A DNA stretch of 64,000 nt from positions 83,688,053 to 83,752,052 of the forward strand of contig OY720344.1 in NCBI GenBank assembly GCA_963082975.1. The letters run 5' to 3'. The DNA is from Labia minor (Eukaryota; Arthropoda; Insecta; Dermaptera; Spongiphoridae). The translations under genes and the position numbers were made by a program. Shown here one piece after another: positions 4,124-63,731 of this stretch (position 1 is the first letter of the stretch; each line of letters starts with the position of its first letter). The notes below the pieces were generated by a model. That model did not search any database. It was not told the DNA's origin and saw only the letters and a list, made by a program, of their open reading frames with translations.

Positions 4124-4764
4124 CTGGAGTGTCTCCACTCGACTATCTCGCAATTTGAATTGGATTAAATAACATAATATATTATATCTAAATTAAATTT
4201 AATTAATTATAAATTATAAATAATAAATAATAAATATTAAACCAGCGCATGTTTGGCTTTTTGTTGATGGCACCACGTCACGTGTTGGCGCGTGAGATTT
4301 GCAGTGTTAAAAAATTAATTCTGGTAATTTCAGCGAATCAATCAAGCTGAAATTCTATATATAGCAGTTTTATACAATGTTTAATCATGTGAAAAATTAT
4401 CAAACATATATCTTTATTTTTACGGTCACTTTAGAGGAAAAAAAATCAAAACGTTGTAGGTAATGACCCTCTTCCGGTTGAGCTACATTTCTCAAAAGTT
4501 GATAGAAAACTATGAATTTTGAATAATGTCCATGTACCAAATTTCATCATTCTAGCTCAAACCGTTTTTGCGTAATCTTGCCTACATACATACACACACA
4601 CATACACACACACATACACACATACACACACACACACACACACAGACATTTTTCTCAACCTTAGTGAAAATGATTCAGGAACCTTCAAAACGTATAAAAA
4701 CATCAAAATCTCAACATCGAAAATTTTCGTGATCGCAATACTATCTCTGGCGAGATAGTAAAAA
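4124..4764 (-). mobile_element. HINE-A copy (Helentron-like non-autonomous element)
   Basis: Nearly full-length copy in reverse orientation. Read on the minus strand it starts TTTTTACTATCTCGCCAGAG and ends in a subterminal repeat TTGCGAGATAGTCGAGTGG, followed by the hairpin GAGTG-GAGA-CACTC and CCAG. The 5' CTATCTCGC and 3' GCGAGATAG motifs are inverted copies of each other. The centre holds a CA/GT simple-sequence tract (about 4585-4645). This matches the plan known for Helentron-associated elements such as DINE-1: subterminal inverted repeats, microsatellite core, 3' stem-loop. No protein is encoded. Family assignment is by structure only. Confidence 0.7.
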
Positions 4765-4903
4765 TGAGCTGTGGCCAGGCGCAGAACCGACCAATGATTT
4801 GAAATAAATTAATTTCCAAACAAAATTATTTATATATATATATATATATATATGTAAGTATAAAAAAAAAATATTTTTAAAACTTGAATTAAAATGACTA
4901 AAT

Positions 4904-6279: not shown

Positions 6280-6675
6280 CTAGCTGCTCCGAGCGCCTTC
6301 CAGGCGCCCTTCACACCTAGACGGGGGCTCCGCCCCCTGTACCCCCGAGTGATACATAGTATTTGGTTGAAAGTCTGTATGTAAAAGGTTTTCATCCATT
6401 TTGTTTCAATCAGTATAAGTAGATAAGACATATATTTGTTTTCTTGGAAAATATATTTTAATTTAATCAGTAAATTAATTATATATTATTATTGTATATG
6501 TTATATTTATCTAACTCTGTGTCTATACAGTTTTCGAAAGCCGCAGCATCCACTTTTCTCTAAGAGTCCCTATCCTGAGCTACAACCAAATCCTACCCTG
6601 TCCCATCTCTCCCATGTCCCTTCCTTCATTGTCCACCCACCTTGATCTTTGGTCTTTCACCGGATGTTTCCCAAT
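6280..6675 (-). mobile_element. Helitron, truncated copy
   Basis: This is the 3' terminal part of the Helitron family seen complete at 47720-49244. On the minus strand it ends in a GC-rich hairpin, then GGAGCAG and CTAG, followed by T. The hairpin here carries small changes. The following segment matches the 45280 copy up to about 6675, including a degenerate minus-strand stretch related to the C-terminal end of a non-LTR retrotransposon reverse transcriptase. The 5' start (TCTATATATATA) is missing. Confidence 0.65.
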
Positions 6676-7224
6676 ATTTGTGGCTCTTTATTTTACATAT
6701 ATATGTATAAAACATGATAACGATTAAAACGAATGTTTAATAATAATGACGAAGTAAACGCCTATTATAATAATAGCAGACCCGGAAAAGCTTCGCTTTT
6801 GCATGTGTGTCTGTATACATATCTACGTATATGATAACTGAACACTTAATAATAATAATAATAATGTATTAAATGAATATAATTGAAATTTTAGTTGTAA
6901 TTGCACTTTTTTTTTGGTTTTTATTTTTATTTATTTTTATTGGAATTATTACAAATAATAATAATAATAATATACCGTTTAATACGTGAAAATAATAATA
7001 ATAATAATAATAATAATTTATTAAATTAATATAATTGAAATTTTATTTTTTATTATTATTATTAAGAGAATTTTTATTAAAAGACCACATTATTTGTATA
7101 AAATTATTTATTAAATTAAAATAATTGTACAACGTTTCAACTGCTTATTCTGCAGTCGTTTTCAAGTAATCGTACGCTTGCTCCGATTCAAGCAGACTTT
7201 TATTATTACATTTTTATTTTTATT

Positions 7225-32000: not shown

Positions 32001-33434
32001 AATTGAAAATCCTGTTATTTTTGAATAACAAATATTTTCAGTGAAAAGTTTTTCTATTTTTTCTTTGTAGTGATTAATTTTTTTCTATTATTATTTTTGT
32101 TTGTTAATAAACATATTTAGTTTGTAAAATTCAAAGGTCAATAAAAAAAATTGCAAATATATAAATTAACAAATTTAATTATAAAATATTTTTTCATATA
32201 TATATATATATATATTATACTTTAAAATATTACTTTTAACTTTAAAAAATTCATTTTTTTTACCTTGTGAGCTTTAGAATAATTGACTTCATATCCTGTT
32301 GGGGGACCATTGCGTTTTTTTGCTCGATTAATCTCAATTTTCTCTCTTTTTACAGCTTTATCTTCATCTGACATAATATAGTCCTTCCTCATCCCAATTG
32401 CAAAACATTTTGCCAAGCGACATTTTTGACAAAAACGTCTCGTAATTGGAGTGATTTCGCAGTTATTAGTAAAAGGGCAACGAAATTCCTATAAATGAAA
32501 GAAAAAAAATATTCAAAATTTAAACTTTGACTTAAATGAAAAGTTCATTTAATTCAAAAATAATATTTTTCATTTTTACTTATTTTTTATTAATTATTTA
32601 CAATAAATTCGATTGTTATTTGAAAGAGTGACGGAAAAAGAAATAAATCAAACTAAAATAATTCAAATTCAAACAATGTGTTTTTAAAGAAATAATTATT
32701 AAATATATGCATATAGGAGAATGCAATGTTTATGTTTACAACCGATATTGGTAGATAAAAACGTAGGATGTTGCCAATGGAAAGTTGCTGAGATAAGGAA
32801 ATGCAATGAATTTTCTCAATACCTGCGACTGATTTGAAAATTTTTAAAACCAAATTAAACAACTGTTTAGTGGAAATTCCTTTAAAAAAGACTAAATTAT
32901 TTACAATAACAAACAAGTTTTTATAACCTTACTCTACAAAATGTAACCATTTATTATTTTCTTGCCTATCAGCTGATGTCACAATGTCACAAGAAAATGA
33001 TAATATCTTGTATACGGATACGAAACGAAAATCTAATTATGCATTTTTTTTTTATTTTAATTTAATATTATTCAAACTTTTTCCAAAATGCAGTAAGAGA
33101 ATCTCTTCCTTGTCATATATTACTTAATATAATATAATATGTTATTTAAGCAAAATTCTAATGTTCTAAGGGGGTGGGAGGTACAAATCCCTGATCAATT
33201 TTTAAATTTCCATTGTGTAATTGAGTTTGACTTGAATGGAGAAGAATATAGAATTATACTTGTTTGATCACTTGCTTTATTTTTCGGAGCATTTCTTCGA
33301 AAAAAAGCTTTACAAGACTCGCATGATACTGCATTAAAATTATGTCCGAGGGCTCTGTCCCCGCAAACGCCGCATACTTTGTCGGCGATTCGCAGCTCAG
33401 GCTGCGTCCCGTTGCTGTTGGGACTCACTTCCAT
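29003..33434 (-). CDS. Hr96: HR96-type nuclear receptor (NR1J), complete, seven coding exons
   Basis: Exons: 33470-33276 (ATG at 33434), 32488-32264, 31888-31578, 30940-30715, 30323-30132, 30038-29829 and 29203-29003. The product is about 507 aa. The DNA-binding domain spans residues 21-86. Finger 1 is [10 protein letters not shown] with P-box CESCKA, which is diagnostic of the HR96/DAF-12 group. Finger 2 has Cys 57, 63, 73 and 76, followed by [12 protein letters not shown] Ser/Thr/Pro-rich hinge (exon 3) leads to a helical ligand-binding domain including [20 protein letters not shown]. It ends with an AF-2 helix PLLREIFDL. Family role: ligand-regulated nuclear transcription factor controlling xenobiotic and lipid/sterol responses. 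Intron 1 fits only as a GC-AG intron. An in-frame open stretch back to an acceptor at 33471 means the true start could lie upstream. It is shorter than the Drosophila protein, mainly in the hinge. Confidence 0.95.
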
Positions 33435-33470
33435 CGATCCGAAAGCGAATCCTCCTCCGACAATCCTCCT

Positions 33471-36400
33471 CTGAAATCCAAAAAAAATCTTTGATAAAAT
33501 ACTATAATATATATTAAAATGAATTAGAGGAATGCAAATTTTATTTATTGATTATTAATGCTATTTAAATTAACTTGTGTAAATATTTAAAAAACCAAAA
33601 TGCTAAGCGGATTAAATGTGTACTTTGATATCGATATAATAAAAATGTTCATTAATTGATTGGTCATTGAACATATTTTTGAATTTGTTATAAATTAATA
33701 GTAGTAAATGGTATTTTTTTAATCTGGGTGAATTTTAGATAAAGTTAATCTATATATTTAAATATATATCTTTTATATGAAAAATTGGGAAAAAATATTA
33801 TTTTCGAATAAATTATTTAGTCAGATGTCAACAACATTCTTTGGGTATGGAACATAATATCTTCTATTATGTTATATACAATGGACTTATTTATTTGCAA
33901 TATTAAATGAAAACTAGATAAAAGATAAATTTTTAGAATCAGAGATAATTAGAACCATTTATATTAGGAAGATTTATATTATATAGTAAATGAACTAATA
34001 AATTTAAAAATAAAATAAAAACTAAGGAAATTAGGGAGGTGATAAATCAATGATTTAAATAAATAAATAAATGATAATAAAGAAAATAAAAAAATAATTT
34101 ATTTTTTTTCATTTCTAAATAAGATTTCTTATGAGTACAATTTGTATTTTTGTATTATATATATTTTATTCTTCTACACAAATAAATAAATAATATTTTC
34201 CAAAATCTGTAAATATAATATATATTTTGACTTGTGTTAATTTAAATTTTTTTTGTCATTTTTTAAATGGACATATATTCATAATCCTAACCATCAATGA
34301 TAATTCATTATTCCAGATTGATGATGTGGAATAAATTTTCAAACATGAATCATTTTTATTTCATCAGAAAGATAAAAAAAACTGTTAAAGTTTGCTTATA
34401 ACCAAAATATAAAATAAAACAATTGAGGCATATTGTCCGGATTGAATTGAAATAATTAAGCATTGTTAAAATACCATTATATTTAAAAAAAAATTAATAT
34501 TACTCGAATAAAAACTTTTAAATCTCTTTATTAAAAATAAACTCACCTAATTTGGCAATTTGAAGTTTTTAATCGGAGTTATAAAACGAAATCAGGATTA
34601 AAAAGTTTATATTAATTTTTTAAAAAAAAAAAGTTTAAAAAATACAAAACAAATAATCAAATTTATTAAATTATAGGTATATTCATTATTAATAAATTAT
34701 CAACATATATATATAAGATTGTATTTTAATTTTATAGAAAGCATAATTCAATCATTAAGATTTAATTATTTAATTTTTCAACTTATTTTGCTTACTCTAA
34801 AAAATAATCATACAATTATTGCTAGATAAAAGGATGATTTTAAATGATGTAAATAGTTTCAATATGTTTTACTTAAGAATAAATTAAAATATTAAAATTA
34901 ATATATATATATATATAGATAAAATAATGTTAAATGAGATATAAATCAATAATGAAAAAGATCTCTTACATTCATTTTTGTTAGAAGTCATCTAAAGAAA
35001 ATGTTATTTATTTATATAAAAAAACAATTAAATAGATTTATTTGAAATAATATGTAATATCTGATTATAATTTGTTGACAAGAGAAAAATAATTTTAGCA
35101 TATTAACAATAATTACGAAATTGATTAATCTTTCTTCTAAATGAAAATTATCTAAGGAATTTGATAAGAAACTAATGACAGCTGATCATGTTATATAATT
35201 TTGAATTTATTTATTTTGTTTGGGTATTTGCACCAAAAGTGGGGGTGTTTGGATGTTAAAAGGGTGATGGTAGAAAGGTCATGCCTACCTGGTAAACATG
35301 AATTTAGAATAGATGCAAACCCAAATGACAACCGTATGATATTTTCCTGTCCTTCCCCTGTCCTCCATTTCAATTCCTTCCATATGATTCACACCCAGAA
35401 AGCCACTCGTCACCGCGCTAAATTTGAATACATTGATTTTATTTTCTGCAACTTGAAACATTATATTTGTATATAAGTATATATAAAAGTTAAATAAATA
35501 TAATTTTAAATATTAAAATATTTATATTTATTTGACATTTATTTATATTATATTTTTTGTTTTTGATTAAAATTTAATTAAAACAAAATATGTAGGTATA
35601 CCCTTTTACTCGAAAATATTTTATAAAATTACCCCATTTTAAAAATGAAATTTTAATCTAATTAGAAGAAAATTATACTCTTTACATATTGTTTTTTTTA
35701 ATATTATCAATGTAAATAAATAAAATAAATATTCACAAAGAATATTTTGTTTGAAAAGTTCAGCCTTTAGTCTCTCCTCCCCAAAACCAAGATATCTCAT
35801 TATTTTAAAATAAATAAATATAACAATCCAATACTAAATATTTTGCTAAAATATAAATTTAAGAATTTTTTTAAAAATATATATATATGCATTTATGAGC
35901 GAATTCTACTTAAGAGAACTCGAAAAATTTTAGAGAATTATAAAGAAATGGTAAAAGCAAAAGTTTCATTATAAATGAATAAGACTTATTTATTAATCCA
36001 TAATTAATTTTAATTTATTTATGGTTCATTCAATCCTTCATTCATTAATAAAGTTATTTTTTTGTTAAATAACTTTAGAGTAGTTCTCTCTAATTGAGAA
36101 ATTTATAAGTTTATTAAATTATTAAATGGAGCAAACTCAAATAAAAAAATAAATAGAAATAAATTATTTATAATAAAATCTTTTATTCTATTAAAAATGT
36201 AAAAGTAAAATTTGTTCCATTAATTAGTTATCTTATGTTTTATAAACAAATAAATTAATTTCTATATACAATCCTTTATGTTGTATCATAAGAGGAAAAT
36301 AGTGAATAGCGTTCTTGCACAAGACAATCGTTTGTAAATGGAATATCAATCTCATAATATTAACAATTGCAATGCAAGATTCAATTCAAATTTACATACT

Positions 36401-36910: not shown

Positions 36911-37516
36911 TAGTGTTTTTCAACTTTTTTGGACCAAATGTCCACTTCTAAGGCCGGCTTCACATCGCCCCCCTATAAATTTTACTTAGAGCCATATTGA
37001 AAAATCAAGTTTCAGAACCTGATCGCAAAATCATCTTACCTTTTTTACCGACCGACGATAGTAAGGGAGGTATTGTTTTCACACCAAATTTCACATGTGG
37101 AGATTTTTACATATCTCCACGAATCATGCATTTTCTAACCAGAAAAAAGTATTTTTAGCATGATGTCTGTCTTTGTATTGGTTTTATCCTCGGGAAAATC
37201 ATATTTATTAGTTTTTTCTTGATTTAAAATTATATGACGTCATCCAGCCATTCATGACGTCACAGCCTGGTCTTACATATATATTATAAATAAAATTAAA
37301 TTAAAAATGTTTATATTTATTATTTATGTATTCATATCTGTTTTTTATTACATTAATAGATATATTAAAATTATTTGAAATTGTTTCTGTAGTTAGAAAT
37401 TAATTTACTTCAAACCGTCGGTCGGTTCGGACCTGGCCACAGGTCAACTTATTTTAAGAGATATAAATTATTTCGTCCCCCTTTAAGATGTCGATCGCCC
37501 AGGTTGAGAATTACTA
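36911..37516. mobile_element. hAT-type MITE interrupted by a HINE-B
   Basis: Termini TAGTGTTTTTCAACTTTTTT and CAGGTTGAGAATTACTA are inverted repeats. Flanks AATTAGAT (36903-36910) and AGTTAGAT (37517-37524) form a 7 of 8 target duplication. GATCGC and CGATCGCCC motifs recur inside. A HINE-B occupies 37041-37455. Without it the MITE is about 190 bp. Confidence 0.75.
37041..37455 (+). mobile_element. HINE-B copy with both ends present
   Basis: Both ends are present: TTTTTTACCGACCGACGATA at the start, and CGTCGGTCGGTTCGG, the GACCTG-GCCA-CAGGTC hairpin and AACTTATTTT at the end. A degenerate ATGTCTGTCTTTG stands where other copies carry the GTCC repeat. Internal TGACGTCA-like motifs (ATGACGTCATCC, CATGACGTCAC) are shared with the 7225 and 54281 copies. 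It is inserted in a T-run of the MITE at 36911-37516. Confidence 0.75.
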
Positions 37517-38529: not shown

Positions 38530-41500
38530 ATAAAAATAATAATAATAACATAATCTATAAATCATGTAATATAATTTAAGTACAATATCAAATTATTATT
38601 TAGATATAAATTTTTATTTCTATTTATTATTTCTTTCTCAATAAAATAAATGAAAATTAAAAAAAATATTATAATATTATAATGCTATCAATTAATCATT
38701 TATTGAATAATAATATTAGATCCATATTAAAATTTGTAGTATCTAATTAAATAATATTTTTTCAAATTAATTTCAAAGAATTTAATAATACAACATATCA
38801 AATTATATTTGATCTATGGAATAGTTTAATTAATTTTATGTATAAAATAATAAGGGTACAGAAAGATATTTTGACCCTTTAATTCAACATTGGCTAGTAA
38901 AATGGAAGAGGTTAGAGGAAGGGCCAGATGAAGAGAGAGTTTTCCTGATTACCTTGGCTATTTGGTACAGCAGAGTCAGCTGCTGATAATTCATCCTCTC
39001 CAGCTGTTGGCTGATCTGCTTTGCAATAGTGCATAGACATTTACCGAGGCCCTGAACAAAGAAAAATATAAAATAAATAATAATAAGACTAAAGATAAAA
39101 AATAAGTGTAATATTTAATTTATTGATGATTATTTATCTATTATTAATATTCTTGTTAACTATAACATTACTTCATATTATTTTCTATGTTTAATAGGTA
39201 TGAACTATTTTAAATATATAAATAAATTTATAAATTTTCTAAATAGTATTTATTGAAGAAAAGGTTTCTGGATCTAAAACTTGGATTGGAGATAAACAAG
39301 ATTCTCACTCATTTACTATTTTATATAAATATATAACAAGATAAATATAATTTATATCCGAAAAATTCTCAAGATTCAATTAATTTTAATCTGAATTAGA
39401 TAAACAATTCTAGAGAACCTTTGTAGCAATTATTATAATAAATTTTATTTATTTTTATTTCTAATATAATAATTGAAAATTAATTCATTTTCAATGAATT
39501 AATTAATTGAAATTAAATTCTAATAATTGAAAATTATTAGATCATATTTATTGAATGAAAAAGTAATTACTTTTAATAAATCATATACAATATGCTGACG
39601 ATTTTCAAGATCAGAATAACATAGATATAATTTTCTAATATAATTATACAATTTTATATTGATATACATTAGTATATAGAAATAATATTTAAAGTTTCAT
39701 CATCTATAATTGCTGATTTATATTATTATAGAGATGGTCTGTGATTATTATATTCTTATTATGTTATTATAATTCTAACTTCATGGACATTTTTTTTTGT
39801 TTTTCTTAAAAAAGTTAAATGAGGATAAGTTTTTTAAAAATCTAATAATTGATATTTATATAAATATTAACAATAACAGGATAGGTTCTAGGATTTTGAG
39901 CGCCTCGAATATGAAATTCATGTGCTTAATTAGACTTATAATTGACAATATTTTAAAGAAATAATTAATAATACTTGATTATATTTTTAAATTTATTATA
40001 TATATATATATATCTAATATATATTAATAAACTTTTTACTGAATTCTTTAGTAAGTGAATCGATGAATTTTGAGCACGGTTGTCTTGACCACTGATAATG
40101 TCTCCAAAGCAGTCAAGACACCAATGCGCCGCCTTCTCAATGGTTTCACTGAGGTCTTCTTCTATGAACTGAGAGCGTCGAAGTCGTTTGCGTGGGGGCT
40201 CATAGTCGTTTAAAGATGCTTTTATATAAAAGAAGAATATAAATATAAATATATTTGTATTGCTTAGAACTCATATAAATATTTTTTTTTATCTTACCAC
40301 TATTGATATTATGACAATAACGCTTATTAGAATAGAATATAATAGATAATAATAATAAGCAATTTTATTGTTAATTAAAATAATTAAAATAAAAATAGTT
40401 TTAAACAGATATTATTTTATTTATTTCGACTGTTACTTTTATTGTATAATGTATTTTTACTATCTCGCCAGAATATTTGGTACATGGACATTATTCAAAA
40501 TTCATATTTTTCTATCAACTTTTGATAAATGTTGCTCAACCCGAAGAGGATCCTAACCTACAACGTTTTGATTTTTTTTCTTCTAAAGTAACCGTAAAAA
40601 TAAAGATATATGTTTGATAGTTTTTCCCATGATTAAAAATTGTATAAAACTTCTATATATAGAATTTCATCCTGATTGAATCGCTGAAAATACTAGGATT
40701 AATTTTTTAACACTGCAAATCACGCACCAACACGTGATATGGTGGCATCAACACAGAGCCAAACACGTACTGGTTTAACAAATATTATTGATTAATTTTA
40801 ATTTATAATTTAATTAATTAAATTTAATTTAAATTAATATATGTTATTTAATCCAATTCAATTTGGCGAGATAGTCGAGTGGAGACACTCCAGATTTTTT
40901 TTCAAGTTTAAATTATATATAATCTTATACATTATAATTAATAATAATCCTATAAGTTATATTATTTGTAATATACAAATTATATAAATACATTATATAT
41001 ATCCCCTTTTTTGAACTAATTTAATATTTATATAAATTATAATTTCCTTAATAAACATTATTAACATTAATATTGATTTGATAGATTTTGATTGTATTTT
41101 TTAATATTTTTTTTATTTAAATCTCAGATTCTTAATTTTATATAATATAAAGGGGAGTAAACAAATATATTTGATCCCACTTGAGTCGCCATTTAGCATT
41201 CATTTAGGACACCTCCAATCACATAAACATATTGACTCTTTAGTCTGAAGTAACCATTTCTACCATTTCTTGTTCTTCAAAAATGAGAGATCCAATCCAT
41301 TTATGTCATTTCTCAGTCACATTTGAATACTAAATGACAATCCAAACGGCCTAACCCCTCTAGAAGCTGAGTAGTGTATGTTCCAAAACCATTCATTTTG
41401 TAAGAACATATAACATATAGGTATATCCAATTATTAATCGTCATAACTAGTACCTTTGTCAATTTCTTGATCTGGATTTACTAATTCTAAAGCTTGACTA

Positions 41501-45279: not shown

Positions 45280-46580
45280 CTAGCTGCTCCGAGCGCCTTC
45301 GGCGCTCTTCACACCTAGACGGGGGCTCCGCCCCCTGTACCTCCGAGTGATACATAGTATTTGGTTGAAAGTCTGTATGTAAAAGGTTTTCTATCCATTT
45401 TGTTTCAATCAGTATAAGTAGATAAGACATGTATTTGTTTTCTTGTAAAATATATTTTAATTTAATCAGTAAATTAATTATATATTATTATTGTATATGT
45501 TATATTTATCTAACTCTGTGTCTCTACAGTTTTCGAAAGTTCTTAGCCGCAGCATCCACATTTCTCTAAGCGTCTCTATCCTGAGCTCCGACCAAATCCT
45601 ACCCTGTCCCATCTCTCCCATGTCCCTTCCTTCATTGTCCACCCACCTTGGTCTTTGGTCTTCCACCGGATGTTTCCCAATCGGTTTCTCCCAATTTCTA
45701 GTTTCTCCAATTCCAACCACTTCCCCTTTCCATCCCAGCCTTCTCGATTTTATAACCTTAACTATATCTGGACATTATTTCTCGTTATGCCATCTCCGCC
45801 ATCCCCTTGTGACCTCATCTTCTTTTGGCCTATAAATGCTGCGAACAATATTAATCTGACAAATACTCTAAATCTACTCTCGTCTCCCAGAGTCATCGAT
45901 AGGGTGACCAAACGTCCCGTCTTAGGTGCTCTGTCACAAAAATGTCTTCGGGACACCGCACTGTCCCGTTTTTTCAATATTTAGGACATTTCGTAATTTT
46001 TTTTCAAAATTTTTTCAATTTAGTTCTAAAAAAAAGGTATACCGTTTGTCCCGGTTTGGTGTTTTCGAAATATGGTCGCCCTAGTCATCGATCAACATGA
46101 AAAATAATTGTTTTATATATTTTAATTTTGATCCTCTTTGATGAGATAAGCCCCTTTACTGCATAATAACAGGCGTTACTCAATTACAACGTCGATTTAA
46201 ATTCTTCTCGAATATTATTATCCTTCGTGATTAGAGATCTTAAGTATTTAAATATTTATACTTTTTCAAATTCTACATTTTGTATGTTAATTGTATGTAA
46301 GTCGTATCCGTATCATAATTCTTGAATTTTTTGTTTAATTACATTTCGGTTGATTTTTCCCCAATTTCTCTAATCACCTGTCTCCTCTTCCAGTCCAATT
46401 CATTTACCTATCAATGTTGCATAAAGCATTTAAATTTCTTAATTTGGCTAGAACACTCCATTTTTTAAAATTTTAAATAGAGGGAGAGAGAGAGGTTCTA
46501 ATTATATATATATCTGTTTCTATGACAGCAAAAAAGTAAACAAATTACATACATACAAACACTCTCCTTTATATATATTT
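45280..46580 (-). mobile_element. Helitron copy carrying a retrotransposon fragment
   Basis: On the minus strand the end is hairpin GAGCGCC-GAA-GGCGCTC, then GGAGCAG, then CTAG followed by T. The start is a decayed AATATATATAAAGGAGAGTG, with the family leader TTTGCTGTCATAGAAACA just inside. The interior encodes degenerate pieces of the C-terminal region of a non-LTR reverse transcriptase on the same strand, such as MTLGDESRFRVF and QRPRWVDNEGRDMGEMG. No Rep/helicase is present, so the copy is non-autonomous. A hAT-like MITE is nested at 45900-46083. Confidence 0.75.
45900..46083. mobile_element. MITE (hAT-like, TAGGGYGACCA ends) nested in a Helitron
   Basis: Inverted termini TAGGGTGACCAAACGTCCCG and TTTGGTG...ATGGTCGCCCTA. 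It is flanked by a perfect 8-bp duplication GTCATCGA (45892-45899 and 46084-46091). It is 184 bp and non-coding. The 8-bp duplication supports hAT mobilisation, although the ends lack CAG. Confidence 0.85.
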
Positions 46581-47284
46581 CTGGAAAATGGAACACCCGC
46601 AGCTCAAGTCAGGAGTTACCTAAGATTCTAATTTCTTTTTTATTTTTCATCATTTGAGGTACCCTTCACCTCAGAAAAATTTGGTTACCTTACTCCTTGT
46701 ATTTTAGGCTCTGGAGTTTTTTGCGTACGGACGGACACTGTCGTATTAAATATATAGATATCATTTAAATTATTAAATTATTTAATTTAATTTATTGTAA
46801 AAGTTCTCATTTTAATAAATTAGATCATATTTATTGAATATTTGAATTGAACTATTTTTAAATGAATAAGAGTATCAATTAAAGAAAGATTTTTTTTTTA
46901 AAAACTATATTTAATAATTTTGACAATTTTCGAGAACACAAAGACATAGTATATGTACAATTTTGTTAGTATAAGAAGATAAATTTTATATTTTTATATT
47001 GAAGAATATAATATTTTAATCTTCTGCAATTATAATTGTTCATTTGTATTTTTTTGTTAATAACTTTATGGACAGTTTTTGTTAATCTCAGGAAAGTTAT
47101 ATAAATATCAAAGAGAATTCTTTTTAGAAATAAAATTATTAAAATTTAAATAAATGTTAATAAAAAAAAAATAAAATAATAATAATATTCATATAAATAT
47201 AATATTCATATAATAATGTTTTTCAAAGCGATTCTGAAACATTGTAATTAATTACTTTAGGAAAAAAGTAATTAATATGATTTT
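46581..47284. other. Repeat fragment and AT-rich DNA
   Basis: At 46585-46760 a GC-richer fragment ends GCGTACGGACGGACACTGTC and then AAATATATAGAT, which looks like the terminus of another rolling-circle or similar repeat. No second end was found. The remainder up to the HINE-A start is AT-rich. Confidence 0.3.
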
Positions 47285-49167
47285 TTTTATCCCGACAGAG
47301 ATATTGAGATTACGAAAATTTTCGATGTTGAGTTTTTCATGTTTTCATACGTTTTGAAGGTTATTGAGTCATTTTCACTAAGGTTGAAAAAAAAGTCTGT
47401 GTGTGTGTGTGTTAAGTTTGGTACACGGACATTATTCAAAATTCGTAGTTTTCTATCAACTTTTGAGAAATGTAGCTCATCCGGAAGTGGGTCACCACCA
47501 CGTTTTGATTTTTTTTCCTCTAAAGTGACCGTAAAAATAAAGATATGTTTGAGAGTTTTTCACATTATTAAAAATTGTTTAAAACTGCTATATATAGAAT
47601 TTCAGCTTGATTTAATCGCTGAAAGTACGAGAATTAATTTTTTAACACTGCAAATCACGCGCCAACACGTGACGGTCAACAAAGAGCCAAACATGTGCTG
47701 GTTTAATAAATATTATTTACTAGCTGCTCAGAGCTCCTTCGTCGCTCTTCACATCTAGACGGGGGCTCCGCCCCCTGTACCCCCGAGTGGTACATAGTAT
47801 TTGGTTGAAAGTAGTAAAAGGTTTTCATCCATTTTGTTTCAAACAATGTATAAAATAAAACATTCATTTCTTATTGTGTGATTATTTAAAATATATTTTA
47901 ATTTATTTAGTAAATTAATTATATATATTATTATTGAATATGTTATATCTATCTACTTGAAAGTTCTTGACAGCTCCAACCACATTTCTCCAAGTGTCCC
48001 CGGTGACCTCATCTTTCTTTGGCCAATAAATGCTGGAAAGAATAATCTGAATCTACTCTCATCTCCCAGGGTCATAGACCATGCGTGGCTCAACGGTACT
48101 CGAAAGTTCTTGGCAGCTACAACCACATTTCTCCAAGTGTCCTTATCCTGAACCTCTGTTCCATCTCTCGTACGTCATTCCCTCATCTTTCTTTGGCCCA
48201 TAAATGCTGGGGAGAATCCTATATTCTCAAATACTCTGAATCCACTCTCATCTCCTAAGATCATAGACCATGTCTCACACTCATATAATACAACAGACAA
48301 AATAATTGTTTTATATATTTTAATTTTCATTCCCTTTTATAATAATTTTGATGAGATAAGCCTCTTTACTGCATGATAACAGGCGTTTCCCGATTGCAAC
48401 TTCGATTTAAATTCTTCTCAAATATTATTATCCTTCGTGATTACATTCAATTTTTCTGCATATTCAAATTCTACAATTTGTATGTTAATACTGCTCCTGT
48501 TTGTTTCTAAATATATTTATTTATCATTATTAATTTCAAACCTCATCTCTTTTCCTACCTCGATTAATTTTTCCTCGCTATCTGTAATTGTAATTGCCGA
48601 ATCTCCTATTATATTTAAGTCGTCTGGGTCACCTAATATTTTACAATTGATTTCCGCATCTTACTCTTTCTTTACTACCTTCAAGATATATTTTAAGATC
48701 AAAATTTGAAAAAGTTTATCCGGATCTATTGAGTCATGCGTAGGTTTTACTAAAGTCAACAAATAATTAGTGAACAGAGATATTGAATTCGCGGTTTTTT
48801 TAATATCTGTCATAATGAAAATATCTTAATTAATGTTGATCGATTTGGCCTGAACCCTCAATGATAGAGTTATATACATTGTGTAAAATGAGTCCGCCAG
48901 TCAGTGGGCCACGCCTGGCTCTTGAATGAACAACACGGAGAACTATATATAAACTTTAAAAAATTAAATTCTGCGGTTTTATTGATTAGATATTAATAAA
49001 ATCTATAGCCTATGTTACCATAGAGGTATATAAGAATATTGTGATGTAATTTCATAGAAATCGTTTCTTATTTTTTGATGTTTATAATTCTAAATTACCG
49101 GTAAAGTGTCGGTTAAGTAGGAAATTTCTTTTTTGTTTGTTTCTATGACAGCAAAAAAGTAAACAAA

Positions 49168-49198
<31 letters not shown>

Positions 49199-49346
49199 CA
49201 TACATACATACATACATACAAACAGTCTCCTTTATATATATAGATTAATTTTAATTTATAATTTAATTAATTAAATTTAATTTAAATATAATATATGTTA
49301 TTTAACCCAATTCAAATTGCGAGATAGTCGTGTTGAGACACTACAG
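47285..49346 (+). mobile_element. HINE-A copy split by a Helitron
   Basis: Left part 47285-47719 begins with the decayed subterminal repeat ATCCCGACAGAGATATTGAG, includes a GTGTGTGTGT core and ends at AATAAATATTATTTA. The right part 49245-49346 resumes TTAATTTTAATTTATAATTT and ends GCGAGATAGTCGTGTTGAGA, with a mutated hairpin and CACTACAG. The two parts join exactly as in the copy at 59459-60679. Confidence 0.85.
47720..49244 (-). mobile_element. Helitron, both ends present, inserted between A and T
   Basis: 1525 bp. On the minus strand it starts TCTATATATATAAAGGAGAC and ends with CTAG. The GC hairpin before the end is decayed here (GAGCGACGAAGGAGCTC). The host bases are A on the left (47719) and T on the right (49245), with no duplication, the Helitron hallmark. 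An expanded CATA tract (about 49167-49220) lies near the start. The interior carries minus-strand remnants of non-LTR reverse transcriptase, such as REEFKSKLQSGNACYHAVKR. It has no Rep/helicase and is non-autonomous. Confidence 0.85.
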
Positions 49347-53675: not shown

Positions 53676-56600
53676 TATTTATAAACTGTTATTAAACTAT
53701 TGTTTAAAGTTTTTATAATTTTGTGGATGTAAATATTAATTAATTAATTTTATTTTGGTATTTTGAAGCAAAGTCCACAAAGATTAACAAACAAATAAAA
53801 TAATAAACAATATTGGAATCCAATATTAGAAACAATAAGAACTTAGTTGGAATTAATAATTATTTTTATACTATACATAATCAATCAATAATAATTGTCA
53901 ATATAGAAAATTGATTGAAATGTATAATGACAACTCCTATATTACTTTTAAAAATTACCAAATTTTAAGGTGACCATTTTTCTAATATCTTCCTTAAATT
54001 TAATTTTGGTCGATTTGGCCTAAATCCGGATTTCATAATCTCCTAATTTTTCCTCTGCATATGTTTGTAATGTTGGTAAGAGAAATTTCCTTGTAGATAT
54101 TACAGTCCGTTCTTAAAAAGTGGGATTCTAATATGATCTTTTCTTTATAGCAAGAACTAACTTGTGCATACACTATACTAAAGGTTTCGCATTATATGTA
54201 ACCTCGGTTCTTCTAAATTAATTTCGACGGAGTCTACCGCTAGTGTTTCTGTTCTATTACTTCCATTTGAGTTTAATAATTTTTACCGACCGACGATAGT
54301 AAGGGAGGTATTGTTTTCACACCAAATTTCACATGTGGAGATTTTTACATATCTCCACGAATCATGCATTTTCTTAACAGAAAAAAGTATTTTTAGCATG
54401 ATGTCTGTCCGTCCGTCCGTCCGTCCGTATAGATGTGTACAGCCTGAACGGCTCAACCGATTTTGATGAAATTTGGTATATTTACTTAATGCATCAGTGG
54501 GATGAATTGATCAACTTTTGGTGCAAATCCGGAAACCGGAAGTGGTAGTATTAGCGATCGACGATAGGAAGGGAAGGGTTATTTTCACACCAAATTTCAC
54601 ATGAGGAGATTTTTTTATATATCACCACGAATCATGCATTTTCTTAACAGAAAAAAGTATTTTTAGCATGATGTCTGTCCGTGCGTCCGTCCGTCCTTCC
54701 GTCTGTCCGTATAGATGTGTACAGCCTGAACGGCTCAACCGATTTTGATGAAATTTGGTATATTTATTTAATGCATCAGTGGGATGAATTGATCAACTTT
54801 TGGTACAAATCCGGAAACCGGAAGTGGTAGTATTAGCGATCGACGATAGGAAGGGAAGGGTTATTTTCACACCAAATTTCACATGAGGAGATTTTTTTAC
54901 ATATCACCACGAATGTATTGGTTTTATCCTCGGGAAAAATCATCCTTATTATGTTTTTCTTAATTTAAAATTATATGACATCACCCAGCCCTTCATGACG
55001 TCACAGCCTCGGGTAACGCCGGGTAACGCCAGCTACTTCAGCTATATATTATAAATAAAATAAAATTAAAAATATTTATGTTCTATCCATATCTGTTTTT
55101 TATTACATTAATAGATATATTAAAATTATTTGAAATTGTTTCTGTAGCTGTACATAACACTCAGTCCCACACCAAGACCTCCGCCTCCTGCATCCAGGAA
55201 CACTACACGCCACTTTATTCACGTCAACGGTCCATCTGGCCAAAAAATTCACTTTACCATATACCCAACTTAAAATATGGTATAGTTGTTAAAATACGTA
55301 GGTACTTGGTTTAAAATATCTAAAATTATAATACTTAGAAATTTGAACTTAAAAGGTTAATTTATATATTTAAATAATAATTATAATTATACAATTAATC
55401 TAGTGTTATGTACAGCACGAAAACCTGCCAAGTTCAAATTTCTAAGTATTATAATTTTAGATATTTTAAACCATGTGTACCTACGTATTTTAACAACTAT
55501 ACCATATTTTAAGTTGGGTGTATGGTAAAGTGAATTTCGGCCAGATGGACCGTTGACATGAATAAAGTGGCGTGCCTGGATGCAGGAGCCGGAGGACTGG
55601 GTGTGGTGGCGATTCTTTGGAATGCCAAATGTTAACCAGTGGATCAGGCTGTTGATAAAAATGATTATGAATGATTTTGAAGTGCATCTAAACTTGGCAT
55701 TGGGATGGATTTGAACCCTTTTTTAGGCAAACAAATAACCGATAGGAACTTGGCCCCCTTTTTAACAGGTATGTTTTTGATTAGATTTCAATACTTTTTT
55801 TTAAGAAAGCTTCCTATTTTTTACTTTTTGTGCCGCGCCCGCGTCCATTCTTAGCCTTTGAAGTAATTTTGTGTTTAAAAAAATTGCAAATTTTTTTAAA
55901 TTAAAATTATATTTGTTTATATATTAAATATAATAATTTTATTTGTTCTTTTATTTTATAGTTCTGAATTTCCAACTTGTATTGAATAATAAATAATTAG
56001 AACTATTAGTTAATTCATTGAAAATTATATAGAAACTGTTAAGTTATAACAATAAAAATAAACAAACTAATTAATTTAAATTATAAAGTAAAATGGTTTA
56101 ACACTATTATATATATTTATAATTTAGACCTAACGCTACTTGTATAGGTAAAATGTCACTTCCGGTAGTCAGATCATGATGAAATTTGGTATCTGAATTT
56201 TTTTCATATTTTTAAATCTATATACAAAATAGGAAGCAAATATCTCGAAGCAAACTGGTACTTTACTTGAAAGGTAAACGCAACCAGTGTAGGTAAAGTA
56301 CCACTTCCGGTTAACCGATTTTGACGAAATTTTAAAAGAAATCTACAAACTGTGAATAATATCGGTGTACCAAATTTCGAAGTCCTAGCTTGATTAGTTT
56401 CTGACAAAACCAATGAATTCGTTTGAATTCGTTAAAATCGCATTGATATTCGATTATAACAACTCAAGCTTGATCGATTTCCTAAATTTCATAATTTTTT
56501 GTTAACCTACTTATAACACACGACCTGTATGCCAAATTTCATAGCGCTAGGACAATTGGAAATACCCTAAGAATTTTGTTGACCAATCAGTGAATCAGTT

Positions 56601-59575
56601 CCAAAATAAGCTATTTTCACAGGGTCATATTTCAGGATCTACTGAAGCTATAACTATGAAATTTGGCATCCTGCTTTAGTTCTAGTATATGACTACGTAG
56701 ATAAAATTTTATCTCTGTACTTGCAATAGGCACTGAGATACAGGGGGGTCAAAAGTGACTCCAAACCATTCGTGTAAATATACTTACGGCATGCGCGCGG
56801 CTTGCTGGAACTTGGCCGGCGCACTGCCGTGCGCATAGATGTCTTAACATTTATAAATTCTATATTTATAATTGCGATGGCTACTGATTTTCTAAAAGCC
56901 TGTTCCCAGTTGCCTTTCAAAGACGCTGTAATACAGATTATATACACACAAATATCTGAAACTGATATTTAAGAAAAAATGTGAAATTTTGAATTCAAAT
57001 CTTTAGGTTGAAAACATAGAAGAAGCTATAAAAATATAATTATTCAATTATTCATGGGAAAATGATCGAAATACAGCCAAATTAACCTCGAGGTACAACG
57101 ATTACAAAGCAAAGAATACGATAGTAAATATACTTAGTTAATAGAGGTAATTATAAATTTGATTATACATTTTCATTCATTACTAATTGTAAAATGAAAT
57201 CATTTTTACAAAATAATAAATTAGTGTTATATTATTAAATTAAATTAAATTATTAGTTCTTTTTTCTTGATATAAAATAAATAAAACCTTTATCTGAAGA
57301 GCTTTTAAAATGATTAAGATAAACAATAAATAAAATCATACCTACGTATCTTACGTAAATGGAAGTGAAATACCGAGTATTTATTTATTATTTTTTTAGG
57401 AGGAAAAAAAAATAAATTTTTTAATTTAATTAAAATTATTAATCATAAGCAGATGGGAAATATTTATTTTTACCTTTTTTTAGTAGATAATATTATTAAT
57501 TAAAACAAAAAGGAAGAAATTAAAAAAAAATTAAAAAATTAAAAATATTAATAATTTAAAAAAAAATTATAAATTTTAATATTAATTAATTGATTATTTT
57601 ATTTTGTGGTTGTTTTCAGCGGTCAACGCCCTTTTATCTAACGGCCCAGAGATTGTGCTCTCCCTGATCTAAATGAAATTCAAAAAAATTATTAATGGTT
57701 TGGTTTCTCTATAATCTAAAAAATTAAAATGAATACCATTTATACGAAGGGGAAATGTTTATGTGGTTCATAATGAAACATTTAATTAAAAATGTCCTAT
57801 AAATGATTCATTTAATTAAGTATAAATAAATTTTCTAAAAAAATACTATTATTATAGTATAGTTTAGAACGTTATTTATGACAATGATGATCATCATAAT
57901 GACGAATAATCAATTTATTATTATATTTTCTTTTTATCATTAAATTTGAAAAGATTTATGGGTAATAACATTTAAAGACAGTAAGATTTAATAAATATAA
58001 AAAAAAAACAAATAATTTTTATTTTATTATCTAATAATTTATCTATTTTTATTATTTATTTAAATAATTTCTTATTTTAACTAAGTTAAATTAAAAATTT
58101 ATTAATATAGTTATTTTTTTGTTATAAATTAAATAGAATACATAATAGAAAGATTTTAATTCTTTCATGTAATTAATTATTCAATTGTGTAGGATTTGCT
58201 CCATTTTCAAATATTTGCTCTATTACAATTTGAACTTTGGCAGAGTTTAACTGAGTCTCAGGCGGATCAATAATATAATATGAACGGGGGGCGGAGCCTC
58301 CTGCCTCCACCAGTCCTGGAATCCCACCCTCGACAATTATCATACATACAAACACCCACCCACATCCGGTCAATCCACATCCACTCAAATATTAGAATTA
58401 TATTCCCTCGTTTTTTAAATTTTGACACTAGTCGAGTGAAATTCAAATGTAAATTCGATACTAAATATTAAATCCATCAACAGCGTGAAGGGTTCTCATC
58501 CAGAGGTGAGGTATCATCGGCCTCAATTTCCATCATTAAGGACCTGTTGAATGTGCCGAGATGAATTCGACTACGAAATCTAGTTGAGGAAAATTGGAAT
58601 GATTATCCATGCCTAACTCACTTTATGCATTTTGAAAATATTTTCTATTGTCCGGTTAACTGAGAAATTATGCTTTATACAAAAAAAAAAATGTAAAAAA
58701 CAAGCGTAAGGGAAGGGCAAGGGAAATAATATCTGTTTTGATTGTATATTAATAGATAACCCAGTGTCATTTTGTATATAATATCTATCTCTGGCTATCT
58801 ATCTTTAGAACATCAATAAAAGAGTAGCGCCTACCATCCCGGTTGCCGACTAATCGGGGCAGAGGTGTTGTAATACCAGTACAACGGTCCCTCTCAATCT
58901 TGATCTTGGAGGCCGCTACTTCTTATTTCAAGTACCTTCCCAATTTTGAGGCGGAGTGAACCTCATACCAGACTCCCTTTACATTTCCAGACCCGGGTCT
59001 TAAACTCATGTCCACAAACGTATTGAACCAAAAACTGCAGTGGAGCTTTTAATTTTTATACGAAAATAAATAATAATAATATATTTTTAAAATATAATGT
59101 TGGTAATAGATTATGGACTCTTATAATTCTAGTCTTGTCACTTGTATCACATTCTTTTTACTATCTCGCCAGATATAATATTGCAATCACGAAAATTTTC
59201 GATGTTGAGATTTTGATGTTTTATACTTTTTGAAGGTCCCTGAGTCTTTTTCATTAAGGTTGAGAAAAATGTCTGTCTATCTCTCTCTCTCTCTCTCTGG
59301 TGTATGTGTGAGTGAATGTAGACAAGATTATGAAAAAGCGGTTTGAGCTAGAATAATGGAATTTGGTACACGCTACACGCATGTTATTCAAAATTCGTAG
59401 TTTGGTATCAACTTTTGAGAAATGTAGCTCATTCGGAAGAGAGCGTGGAGACAGTCCATTTTTACTATCTCGCCGTAGATAGTATTGCGATCACGAAAAT
59501 TTTTGATGTCGAGATTTTGATGTTTTTATACGTTTTGAAGGTTCCTGAATCATTTTCACTAAGGTTGAAAAAAAA

Positions 59576-59608
<33 letters not shown>

Positions 59609-62600
59609 ATGTATGTAACCAAGATTACGCAAAAACGGTTTGAGCTAGAATGATGAAATTTGGTACATGGGCCTTATTCAAAAGTACCGGGACACCCCGA
59701 GCCTCGGCTCGGTACTTAAGTTAAAAAAATAATTCATTATTATTGGGTTTGGCTGGTAATATTAATACTTGAGACACCGAGCTGAAATACAATTCTTTAA
59801 TTATTTATTACAATTATTAAATGTTGCATCAATGCATCAATCTGAATAAAATGAAAGGAACTTGGTGTCCTCAATAATACATAAATATGTATTATTAGGT
59901 ATGTTTCTAAGTGAATGAATATTTTTTTTTATTGGAAGAATGATAAATATATATCGTAATTTATAATTATAAAATATTATTAAAATATATATTTTTAATT
60001 TTATTTCGAAATTAAATTAAAAATTTTAAAATATTTTAAATATAAAAAAATATTAATACAATAACCTTTAAAAAAAGGCGGGAGTCAAATTTCAATATGG
60101 ATGCCATTTTTGACGTCTCCATATATAATTTTCAATTAAGAAATAAATAATGAAGATGTATTTTTCCTGAGATGTGATCAATAAAAATCAATTTTTCTTT
60201 ATAAATACTATATCTAGTGTGAATTTGAAAAAAATCGTTAGAGCGGTTTTTGAGAACCCATGGCTATATATATATACAATTTTAGCTAGCATAATAAGAT
60301 AATTTTCTATCAACTTTTGAGAAATGTGGCTCAACCGGGAGAGGGTCATTACCTACAATGTTTTGATTTTTTTCCTCTAAAGTGACTGTAAAAATAAAGA
60401 AATATGATTGATAGTTTTTCAAATATTTAAAAATTGTATAAAACTGCTATATATAGAATTTCAGCTTGATTGAATCGCTGAAAACATCAGAATTAATTTT
60501 TTAACACTGCAAATCTCATGCACCAACACGTGACGTGATGCCATCTCACAAAGAGTCAAACATGCGCTGGTTTAATAAATATTATTTATTAATTTTAATT
60601 TATAATTTATAATTAATTAAATAATATATGTTACTTAATCCAATTCAAATTGCGAGATAGTCGAGTGGAGACACTCCAGCTTATTTTTCTTCTAAACTGA
60701 CCATAAAAATAAAGATATATGTTTGATAGTTTTTCACATGATTAAAAATTCTATAAAACCGCTACATATAGAATTTCAGCTTGATTGAATCGCTGAAAGT
60801 ACCGGCATTAATTTTTTTACACGACTGTTAATCACGGGCCAGCACGTGACGTGGTACCATCAACAAAGAGCCAAACACGCGCTGGTTTAATAAATATTAT
60901 TTTATAATTTTAATTTATAATTAATAATTAATTAAATTTAATTTTAATATAATATATGTGTTAATTAATCCAATTCAAATTTGCGAGATAATTGAGTGGA
61001 GACACTCCAGATTTTTATTATTATTATTTTAAACTTTTAGGCGAACGAAACATTTTAGAATTCATCAACTTCATTAGAAATGCAAATCTTTTGTAAGACT
61101 TGAATTCAGAAGCATAGGAGAAATTAGCTTTTAAAGTTGTAAGACATTAAATTCTAAAGATAAGAGAAAAGAATAGATTATTAGAAGCTTAGGATTTGTG
61201 AATAGCATTAATTCAACAAAACATATTAGTTAAGTTTTAAGCAGTATATATCATTAAAATATCAATTGATTATTATTGGAAAAATTTACTTATCAATTTA
61301 AATTTAATTTTCACATAAAACTTAAGGGAATTAGATATTTATTATTTCTGAAGCATTGCTTTAAATGCTTTTTTCTTTTTTGAATTGAAATTTTTTACAT
61401 TTATATGGTATATAGATATGTATGTAGCTATAAAAATATTATTAAAATGGAAAATGAATTATTAAAAAAAGCAAAGTGTATAAAAATGGAAATGGTTCAT
61501 TCGAGTGAACAGATGCTTAAATGAATCACCGAAAGAATTTATGAGCACTTACATATATTGGTGGCCAATTCCGCCTGGAGAATATTGCTGGAAATTGATA
61601 TGATCCCTTGGTGGCAGGTGGTAGTAGCTGCTATGCCCAAAACTGCCATAATTGTGATGTAAATCCGGTTTGCATATTTTAAAGAAACCAATAAGTCCGG
61701 GAATGATGAGGGCTAAAAAGCCTAAGAGTTTTTTGAAAGACGCCAATCCCAATATCAATGGCAAAAATAAAAGCAATTTCAATTTAAAAAGTTTCAAAAT
61801 TACTAGCAATGGAATGAATAATTTCTTCAATCGGGTTCGGGCTGAAAATCAAAACAATGAAATTAAATAGATTAAATTTTTTTCTAAAATAACTAATTAA
61901 AAAAACAAAACGATATTTAATTATAAATAATCATAACATTTGAATTGTATCAAAATTTTATTTCTATTATTAATTCATTTTTTAAGGATCTAAGCCCATA
62001 TTTGCAGTTTACACTTTTATTTTATTCCCATTAATTATTATATTTTTTTTAAATTTTTTTTTAAACTTGAGTCTTAATCCTACATATTCAAGTTCAGTAG
62101 TTCAGTATTTATTACATTCTTGACTTATTAATTCACTTAAAATTTAATTATGATTAAAAAACAACAATAAAGTTTTTTTTATAATATATATGATAAATAT
62201 AATTTTTAATATTTTATTGAAAATTAAATTGGGAAAATACCAATTAGAAATATATATATATTTATCATTTAGAGAAAAACTATAAAAAATTACTTGATTA
62301 AAGAATAAATGAATGATTTAATGAATCAATTAACCTTTGCAATCGAAATTATGTTTTCAAATTAGATGAAAATATGTATCCAATCAAAAATTGATTACTG
62401 AAAATATCTATAATTTCTCATTTAGATAATTTTCAAATTGGATTTGAAAATTATTAAAAAAGAAAAAAAAATATAAAAATAAAAAAATAAAAATAATATA
62501 TATATTATGTTAAAATTATTGCGGTTTGGAGTTTTTGATTTACATTATATCATAACAGAAAATGATCGCCAATAATCTTTTGTCAGTATTTTTGTTATAA

Positions 62601-63731
62601 AAAGTTAAAATAATTTTACAAAATGTTTGCAACAATCCAAACACAATATTTACAAAAAGTTGTCTTTGTCTATAGTAAAAAAAAACATTTGCTCAAGATA
62701 TATAAATGAATAAAGAAAATCAAACTGGGCTTCTAAGCGCGTTTAGCTAAAGCGTTTTGAAGCTTCGGGCATTCATGGTGGTGGTGGTTCAAAACAATTT
62801 ATCCTGTTAGTATCTATATAATTGATTAAAGATGTATATAATAAATAATAATGAATCTTGAACAAAGATTTAGTAAATCCATTAATATTTTAAAATTATT
62901 GAAGTTTGTCAATAACAAGGAAAAAACTAATAATAAATATTTCTTAATAATAAAATAAATATCCATTAATATATTTACAATAATAATAAATATTCTTAAT
63001 TAATTATTGATATTATTAAGATTTGTTTCATTCGAAATGTACTGAAAAATTTTAAATTAAATCAATACCACAAGATATGTTCTTACACAAATATTTTTAC
63101 AATATCCAATTTGCATATACATAGATTAATCACAAACCACTTGAAACTCCATACGATCATATTTTACGATCATATGTATACATTTATTTATATACTGTCG
63201 AATGGCTTTACATATTTCATCAAATATTCTATTATATTGAATTGCTCATTTCCATATGTATAGATTTGTTATTGTACTCTTATAAGTATATTTTTTTTAT
63301 TTGAATAGGAAATTAGGCTGACAAAAAGCAAAATAATTTCCTTAACAAGTGAATTTTCAAATAACAAATAATAAAATATATTACTATTACCAAAATAATA
63401 ATATATAAAATTATTTTAAAAAGATAAATTCAATTTTATTTGTGAAAAAAATAGAAAAATATAAATTAATAGATAAAATTTTGTTTTCAATATATATAAT
63501 AGACTCTTATATTATATTTTATTATATATTTTATACTTACAAAATGAGCTTTCTGTTTTATCATCAATTAGATCAATTTCAGTTGCAATTTCATCAACAA
63601 ATCTAGGCGAGTAACGTCCTTGTTGGGTGACTTCTTCAGGGAATTGTACCTCGATTGCTGTTGATTTAATAAATCGTTCTGCTTTACGTAATACAAATTT
63701 CATTAATTGATCCCATTCAGATTCATCTGCC
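52480..63731 (-). CDS. Osiris-family protein, last three exons (5' end outside window)
   Basis: Exons 63731-63541, 61841-61553 and 52642-52480 join in phase. The first encodes ADESEWDQLMKFVLRKAERF and GRYSPRFVDEIATEIDLIDD. The second is the DUF1676 hydrophobic core, beginning SRTRLKKLFIPLLVILKLFK and containing LASFKKLLGFLALIIPGLIG, then a His/Tyr-rich tail. The third ends EQAQNLAYRAYKPDNNNS and holds the AQxLAYxxY motif. Osiris proteins are insect-specific secretory or membrane proteins linked to cuticle and endosomal trafficking. The signal peptide and Cys pair should lie in upstream exons beyond 64000. The donor AT/GTAAGT of the middle exon overlaps an in-frame TAA, so an unspliced transcript would stop there. 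The intron before the last exon is 8.9 kb and full of transposons. Which Osiris paralogue it is cannot be said. Confidence 0.9.
52643..54280. other. Osiris intron, proximal part
   Basis: AT-rich intronic DNA with a TA-repeat near 53645-53675. The frame at 53429-53620 (minus) is not supported by motifs or composition. Confidence 0.4.
54281..55150 (+). mobile_element. HINE-B with internal tandem duplication, 3' end lost
   Basis: Starts TTTTACCGACCGACGATAG. A unit of roughly 290 bp containing CACACCAAATTTCACATG, a GTCC repeat and GGAAGTGGTAGTATTAGCG is present about 2.3 times in tandem (internal units begin ATCGACGATAGGAAGGGAAG near 54549 and 54839). The 3' body follows, with the TGACGTCA-like motif. 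The element stops at GTTTCTGTAGCTG, where the foldback at 55150 begins, so the terminal hairpin is missing. It lies in the Osiris intron. Confidence 0.75.
55150..55605. repeat. Long inverted repeat (foldback) in the Osiris intron
   Basis: Left arm about 55150-55349 and right arm about 55429-55605 are inverted copies with scattered mismatches and small gaps, around an 80-bp AT-rich loop. Shared motifs include CCATATTTTAAGTTGGGTGT (as complement on the left) and TTAACAACTATACCATATTT. Minus-strand frames in both arms share RLLHPGT and PYTQLKIWYSC, which shows an inverted duplication of one ancestral segment. Family unknown. Confidence 0.75.
56095..56835. repeat. Unclassified repeat with ATGAAATTTGG motifs
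   Basis: The segment repeatedly carries GATGAAATTTGGTA-like motifs together with CACTTCCGGT. This vocabulary is shared with the HINE families. It ends in a GC-rich block with hairpin GCGCAC-TGCC-GTGCGC (about 56818-56833). It looks like the body of another rolling-circle-type element, but termini were not identified. The minus-strand frames inside are shadows. Confidence 0.35.
56840..58172. other. Osiris intron, AT-rich part with one possible small exon
   Basis: Mostly low-complexity AT. At 57618-57672 on the plus strand a strong acceptor GTGGTTGTTTTCAG precedes an open frame VNALLSNGPEIVLSLI and a stop. It could be a terminal exon of an opposite-strand gene or chance. No partner exon was found. 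Confidence 0.3.
58173..58388 (-). CDS. Possible small frame in the Osiris intron
   Basis: Minus-strand frame of 71 codons reading SGCGLTGCGWVFVCMIIVEG then GGSAPRSYYIIDPPETQLNS. The N-terminal part is hydrophobic and could act as a signal sequence. Composition is clearly higher in GC than the flanks. No family is recognised, and the plus strand also has an open frame here. It may be a small secreted protein, a cryptic exon or part of an unrecognised repeat. Confidence 0.2.
   Translation of the reverse strand: MSGCGLTGCGWVFVCMIIVEGGIPGLVEAGGSAPRSYYIIDPPETQLNSAKVQIVIEQIFENGANPTQLNN
58480..59154. other. GC-shifted unassigned stretch
   Basis: The interval 58800-59030 is markedly GC-richer (GGTTGCCGACTAATCGGGGC, TTGGAGGCCGCTACTTC) and follows AATAAAAGAG. 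It has no long open frame on either strand. It may be the leader or end of an old retroelement, but neither repeats at its ends nor a coding region are seen, so I leave it unassigned. Confidence 0.25.
59155..59457 (+). mobile_element. HINE-A, 5' part, first of a head-to-tail trio
   Basis: Starts TTTTTACTATCTCGCCAGAT, contains a CTCTCTCTCT tract, and passes directly from the AATGTAGCTCATTCGGAAGA block to GCGTGGAGACAGTCC, a decayed trace of the 3' hairpin. It is followed at once by the next copy in the same orientation. Confidence 0.7.
59459..60679 (+). mobile_element. HINE-A, complete ends, interrupted
   Basis: Starts TTTACTATCTCGCCGTAGAT and ends GCGAGATAGTCGAGTGGAGA, with the hairpin GAGTG-GAGA-CACTC and CAG. 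A foreign segment sits at about 59684-60300. Without it the copy is about 600 bp, the normal length of the family. Confidence 0.8.
59684..60300. mobile_element. Insertion within HINE-A, rolling-circle-like, family undetermined
   Basis: The left end is GTACCGGGACACCCCGAGCC then TCGGCTCGGTAC, containing the hairpin CCGAGCC/GGCTCGG within an outer GTACCG/CGGTAC pairing. The right end contains GAACCCATGGCTATATATA. The interior is non-coding. No target duplication is seen. A terminal GC hairpin opposite a TATATA end resembles Helitron layout, but the CTRR terminus is missing. Confidence 0.4.
60680..61010 (+). mobile_element. HINE-A, 3' half, third of the trio
   Basis: Begins abruptly at TTCTAAACTGACCATAAAAA and runs to GCGAGATAATTGAGTGGAGA, hairpin and CAG. 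It abuts the end of the preceding copy in the same orientation. Confidence 0.75.
61011..61552. other. Osiris intron next to the DUF1676 exon
   Basis: AT-rich. The donor GTAAGTGCTC at 61552 starts this 8.9 kb intron. Nothing else is supported. Confidence 0.5.
61842..63540. other. Osiris intron between the two upstream exons
   Basis: A 1.7 kb AT-rich intron starting with donor GTAAGTATAA (63540) and ending TTGATTTTCAG (61842). No transposon is visible. A GC-richer patch near 62725-62790 has no supported frame. Confidence 0.5.

Follow-up and report, generated by a model that had tools for sequence, protein, structure and literature searches.

A non-autonomous Helitron between A and T inside a putative HINE, with filled and empty sites in one genomic window

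Introduction

Canonical animal Helitrons, according to the part of Thomas et al. (2014, PMC4067079) available to us, start with TC, end with CTRR and carry a 16-20 nt palindrome set back about 11 bp from the 3' terminus; they insert at A/T sites and duplicate no target bases. The same extract describes HINEs as elements with subterminal inverted repeats, a 3' palindrome, a microsatellite and a T-rich target, and assigns the Rep motif RGLPH to the Helitron type and RGSPH to the Helentron type. Insect Helitrons have already been described as inserting between A and T, with empty sites to match (PMC6544945), and as ending in CTAG with an A on one side of the element and a T on the other (PMC4344730).

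The insertion reported here lies in a 64,000-nucleotide stretch of Labia minor DNA, hereafter called the window, and belongs to a family that shares with the canonical Helitrons of the PMC4067079 extract the TC start, the CTRR end, the 3' palindrome, the A/T site and the absence of duplication, but differs from that description in two hairpin-CTAG units placed in tandem and in about 5% of exact 5' ends that lack the preceding A. With the Hel-2 Helitrons of Lepidoptera, as far as the available text of PMC4344730 describes them, it has in common a 5' TC, a 3' CTAG, A/T flanks, a 3' hairpin, a variable tetranucleotide microsatellite near the 5' end and a non-autonomous nature, whereas the microsatellite is (TATG)n here and (CTGT)n in Hel-2, the likeness being drawn from the published description. 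The window case is well supported as a clean Helitron insertion of a known kind, and what is less usual about it are the many exact 3' ends, the tandem hairpin-CTAG units and a 5' side that is less faithful than the 3' side. It provides a base-exact Helitron empty site that is supported by counts across one whole insect assembly, the source assembly of 604 Mb and 71 contigs.

Results and Discussion

Insertion site

The features of the window that bear on the insertion are collected in Table 1.

Table 1. Positions of the Helitron copies and HINE copies discussed in the text (window coordinates; a slash marks an element border).
Feature	Position	Strand	Basis
Inserted non-autonomous Helitron, 1525 bp; 5' TCTATATATATAAAGGAG, (TATG)n near 5' end, 3' CTAG	47720..49244	-	Boundaries fixed by paralogues; same 3' end in 30 fetched genome loci including this one
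Helitron 3' end: hairpin GGGGGC-gga-GCCCCC then GTCTAG; hairpin AGAGC...GCTCT then terminal CTAG	47720..47775	-	DNA fold z -3.0 (this copy)
Left part of interrupted HINE	47285..47719	+	Alignment to other HINE copies
Right part of interrupted HINE; ends in 3' subterminal repeat GCGAGATAGT, short palindrome, CAG	49245..49346	+	Alignment
Read-through HINE lacking the Helitron; empty site 60588/60589	60300..60679	+	Alignment
HINE intact at the insertion point; 98-100% identity to 40 further near-full-length genome matches	4124..4764	-	Alignment and genome search
Related Helitron copy B; 3' CTAG/T; first three 5' bases differ (no TC)	45280..46581	-	3' part 10.6% (24/226) from insert
Third related Helitron copy C, 3' end, CTAG/T; 5' end not found	6280..6680	-	3' part 1.7% (4/239) from copy B, 11.1% (25/226) from insert

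The host sequence breaks off after ...TAATAAATATTATTTA (last base 47719) and continues with TTAATTTTAATTT... (from 49245), while the insert between these points, read on the minus strand, has the form A/TCTATATATATAAAGG...GAGCAGCTAG/T, with A/TCTATATATATAAAGGAGACTG as a longer reading of its start and A/TC...CTAG/T as the shortest rendering of its termini and their neighbours. When joined, the two host flanks aligned to the uninterrupted HINE at 60300-60679, whose stretch 60570-60605 is identical across the insertion point, and no gap appeared where they meet; an insert-free junction would read TATTATTTA^TTAATTTT. The joined flanks are in register with five other HINE copies of the window (60300-60679, 60681-61010 and 40476-40893 on the plus strand; 4124-4764 and 15537-16115 on the minus strand), all of which except the first show small differences from them. 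Base composition alone, with two strands and two registers counted, gives a chance of about 3e-4 for A/TC...CTRR/T at boundaries fixed by paralogues. The original prediction of a Helitron inside a HINE with an A/T empty site was thus borne out by exact filled and empty versions within the window, and the host coordinates that it gave, 47285-49346, proved correct.

Its further claim of an insertion without duplication stands with one qualification. The empty site is clean; however, positions 47719 and 49244 are both A, so that the junction is fixed to one base only and the absence of a duplication is indistinguishable at this site from a 1-bp duplication of T. The same sequence can equally be written as an element C...CTAG plus a 1-bp T repeat, and the wording "no duplication" follows the Helitron convention.

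The account that we regard as almost certainly correct is that a short Helitron without genes, copied by a Rep/helicase made elsewhere in the genome, inserted at A^T into an existing HINE by rolling-circle transposition and without loss of host bases. A Rep/helicase protein encoded elsewhere would have copied the gene-less element, and rolling-circle transposition would have placed the copy at an A/T site towards the 3' end of the HINE, in a part rich in A+T, where all host bases would have been kept. Observed directly are the precise ends, the empty site, the near-constant ends and A/T flanks, the high copy number, the low divergence among the closest copies and the presence of Rep genes in the genome.

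Further empty sites came from a second repeat, into which the Helitron has inserted at one identical base (TTTTATTTTATTTA^TAATATATATG) in two genome loci, L029 and L030. Empty counterparts that are exact at that base were found in the neighbouring unit in L030 and at window positions 37201-37376, and window segments 7308-7458 and 54946-55131 read through the point with at least one base difference nearby. That L029 and L030 fall in different Helitron length groups suggests two separate insertions at one spot. A third locus, L009, has the Helitron in the same repeat in the opposite orientation, with 7 extra bases at the 5' side relative to the empty copies, and gives no clean empty site. These bases possibly mark a 5' end shifted outward (A/TCTTCTA-TCTATATATATA), or they may be an older difference in that repeat unit, which would look identical.

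Copies and ends across the genome

Searching the genome with the Helitron produced 3523 candidates, of which 40 were scored; these yielded 70 match rows, whose best 30 were fetched as loci, a sample biased toward query-like copies. All 30 end in GAGCAGCTAG/T (CTAG/T), and 27 of them start with A/TCTATATATATA (A/TCTATATATATAAAGGA, i.e. A/TC); L014 and L022 have no 5' TC, and a search for the 5' end of L025 did not find one. Since L004 and L005 have long identical flanks in common, they were counted as one event. Leaving out the L005 duplicate, L014, L022 and L025, the insertion is at A^T in 26 of 26 TC-start sites, whose surroundings are 89% A+T within 15 bp vs 73% at 100-400 bp. The expectation that the ends do not vary from copy to copy is nearly borne out in these loci, with a constant 3' CTAG and a 5' TC that is lacking in two of them.

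Exact ends were counted throughout the assembly, with a backward-pattern control of 0 for each count. The 3' end GAAGGMGCTCKGAGCAGCTAG is followed by T in 7037 of 7077 cases (99.4%) and by another base in 40, and the 5' end TCTATATATATAAAGGAGASTGTTTGT is preceded by A in 1522 of 1609 (94.6%) and by another base in 87 (T 73, G 12, C 2, counted from the listing); both counts require an exact match, so that they pass over diverged copies and include duplicated segments more than once. T, as the base before 73 of the 87 exceptional 5' ends, is more frequent than would be expected from A-to-G mutation. Further CTAG-ended copies, for which the original prediction suggested a search, exist by the thousand, and end fidelity can be measured instead of assumed, while the claim that both ends are always flanked by A and T has to be softened to near constancy, closer on the T side than on the A side. 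The window copy itself has both the 5' TC and the 3' CTRR of canonical Helitrons, and the family inserts at A/T sites and duplicates no target bases, subject to the one-base ambiguity described above and to the exception of L009. Against our main explanation speak the missing TC in L014, L022 and copy B, the failure to find a 5' end for L025, the 7 additional bases of L009, the 87 of 1609 exact 5' ends that are not preceded by A, 73 of them following a T, and the broken state and deviating 3' end of the Rep element that has the same 5' end.

A tentative reading, which we consider possible but rather doubtful, is that joining to the target is more exact on the 3' side than on the 5' side, where the element may also use T^T sites or begin at a shifted position, as in L009. 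If this were true, it would mean, together with the tandem hairpin-CTAG units, that the target is chosen mainly through recognition of the 3' end and that the 5' start is loose.

The three Helitron 3' ends of the window fold alike as DNA. The inner hairpin unit is GGGGGCGGAGCCCCCGTCTAG, and its CTAG followed by C occurs at 30 places genome-wide. Copy B has a 17-nt palindrome, GAGCGCC-gaa-GGCGCTC, 11 nt from its end, which agrees with the 16-20 nt at about 11 bp of canonical Helitrons; at this position the insert keeps a shorter, 5-bp stem with a 9-nt loop, and its last stem, though imperfect, agrees with the consensus of its group, so that the imperfection is not damage in this copy. For copy C, a candidate 5' end at 11673 (TCTATATATATAAAAGG) is preceded by T and has 80% identity over only 51 bases. 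Literature searches for tandem hairpin-CTAG units gave no recognised match, and the "two hairpins" of PMC5148889 are one at each end, not a tandem pair. At two places (C1:113104009-113104046 and C10:52419317-52419354), where the match places overlap, the inner CTAG appears joined to a reversed 3' end, which would fit an inversion of the last hairpin.

Relative ages

Compared with a consensus built from 13 near-full-length copies, the window Helitron has 10 differences in 1501 positions (0.67%), and the 13 copies, the best-scoring ones for the query, are 0.20-0.80% from their consensus. The interrupted HINE differs from a six-copy in-window consensus at 15 of 373 positions (4.0%). These two copies are thereby ordered, the Helitron copy being younger than its host copy, in agreement with the nesting.

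The original prediction went further and took the nesting to order the two rolling-circle families in time, which did not hold up. A greater age of the entire HINE family relative to the Helitron family is very improbable: the 4.0% of the host copy against the 0.67% of the insert would fit such an order, but the HINE at 4124-4790 and its near-full-length matches make up 41 rows, query included, at 98-100% identity, and 18 of the 40 others are printed as 100% (best 40 of 600 candidates scored). Both divergence samples are best matches to their queries and show recent activity, not the age spread of either family. The interrupted copy, at 9.4% from the copy at 4124-4790, is thus part of an older group within a HINE family that stayed active. 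Both rolling-circle families have been active recently, both have near-identical copies, and one nested pair cannot date the two families.

Source of the enzyme and alternative origins of the insert

The Rep domain (PF14214) gave 104 match rows in the genome, several rows coming from some elements and several lying in long open frames. Among 30 Rep loci fetched from these rows, 22 carry the motif RGLPH, four RGSPH and four neither. One of these elements, at L053 with L061, is the only Rep element seen with an insert-like 5' end: it starts with A/TCTATATATATAAAGAAGAG and has 80% identity over 147 bp to the 5' end of the insert. It is a decayed Rep/helicase element of 6413 bp with a broken frame and the motif RGLPH, and its candidate 3' end (CTAG/T with an ATCCG/CGGAT stem, judged by eye) differs from that of the insert. 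Given the broken frame and the different 3' end, it documents kinship of the 5' end and not an active source. Which Rep/helicase moves the Helitron family is, like the rolling-circle steps themselves, something that we infer.

The one-base ambiguity at 47719 and 49244 would also accommodate a cut-and-paste or other DNA transposon with a 1-bp T duplication, an origin that we judge extremely unlikely, since the two ends of the insert do not form inverted repeats, all 30 fetched copies agree in their 3' hairpin and CTAG end, and a Rep/helicase element has the 5' end in common with the insert. An assembly or recombination artefact between unrelated repeats is just as improbable, for although duplicated segments such as the flanks of L004 and L005 exist in the assembly, the Helitron ends recur at thousands of places and both flanks belong to one HINE in register.

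The interrupted host element

Copies of the HINE, a putative Helentron-type element, open with a run of T followed by ACTATCTCGC; at the other end stand GCGAGATAGT, GAGTG-GAGA-CACTC and CAG. They have the subterminal inverted repeats, 3' palindrome, microsatellite and T-rich target of HINEs and DINE-1-like elements in the extract of PMC4067079; five 5' ends in the window open with a T run, and three genome copies appear, from their coordinates, to sit in a T8 run of another HINE. Unlike the mite HINEs of the same extract, with a repeat of 12-15 bp located 38-60 bp from the 3' end, the host has a repeat of 10 bp about 18 bp from its 3' end. HINE would hence be a fair name for the host element, based on its plan of subterminal repeats and 3' palindrome.

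An autonomous partner with the ends of the host HINE was not found among the two Helentron-type Rep loci with upstream DNA read. These belong to four near-identical Helentron-type loci considered as partners, and both have another 5' end.

HINE units are arranged head to tail in 59156-61010 (59156, 59460, 60679/60681), with an additional insert of about 600 bp in one of them, and genome copies at C1:124093702 and C1:124094353 are likewise arranged head to tail.

Other features of the window

No exact match was found in viral_contigs for four patterns (two of the Helitron 3' end, one of the 5' region, one of the HINE) or in genome_contigs for one Helitron 3'-end pattern, the window's own genome records possibly being excluded from both. 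Rfam at gathering scores reported one tRNA in the window and nothing else. Pfam assigned no family to three fragments of copies A and B, which by eye may be similar to the terminal part of a non-LTR reverse transcriptase.

Nested in copy B is a 184-bp MITE-like element at 45900-46083 (TAGGGTGACC...GGTCGCCCTA) with an 8-bp target repeat (GTCATCGA), which presumably fits hAT behaviour. An open frame of 619 aa at 9299-11158 has a weak match to the hAT dimerisation domain (E 0.00085, below the Pfam cut-off). Exons matching a nuclear hormone receptor (zf-C4 and ligand-binding domain), together with two DUF1676 frames, one of them below the Pfam cut-off, are in keeping with an insect and lie at 29733-33551 and 61552-63814, both on the minus strand.
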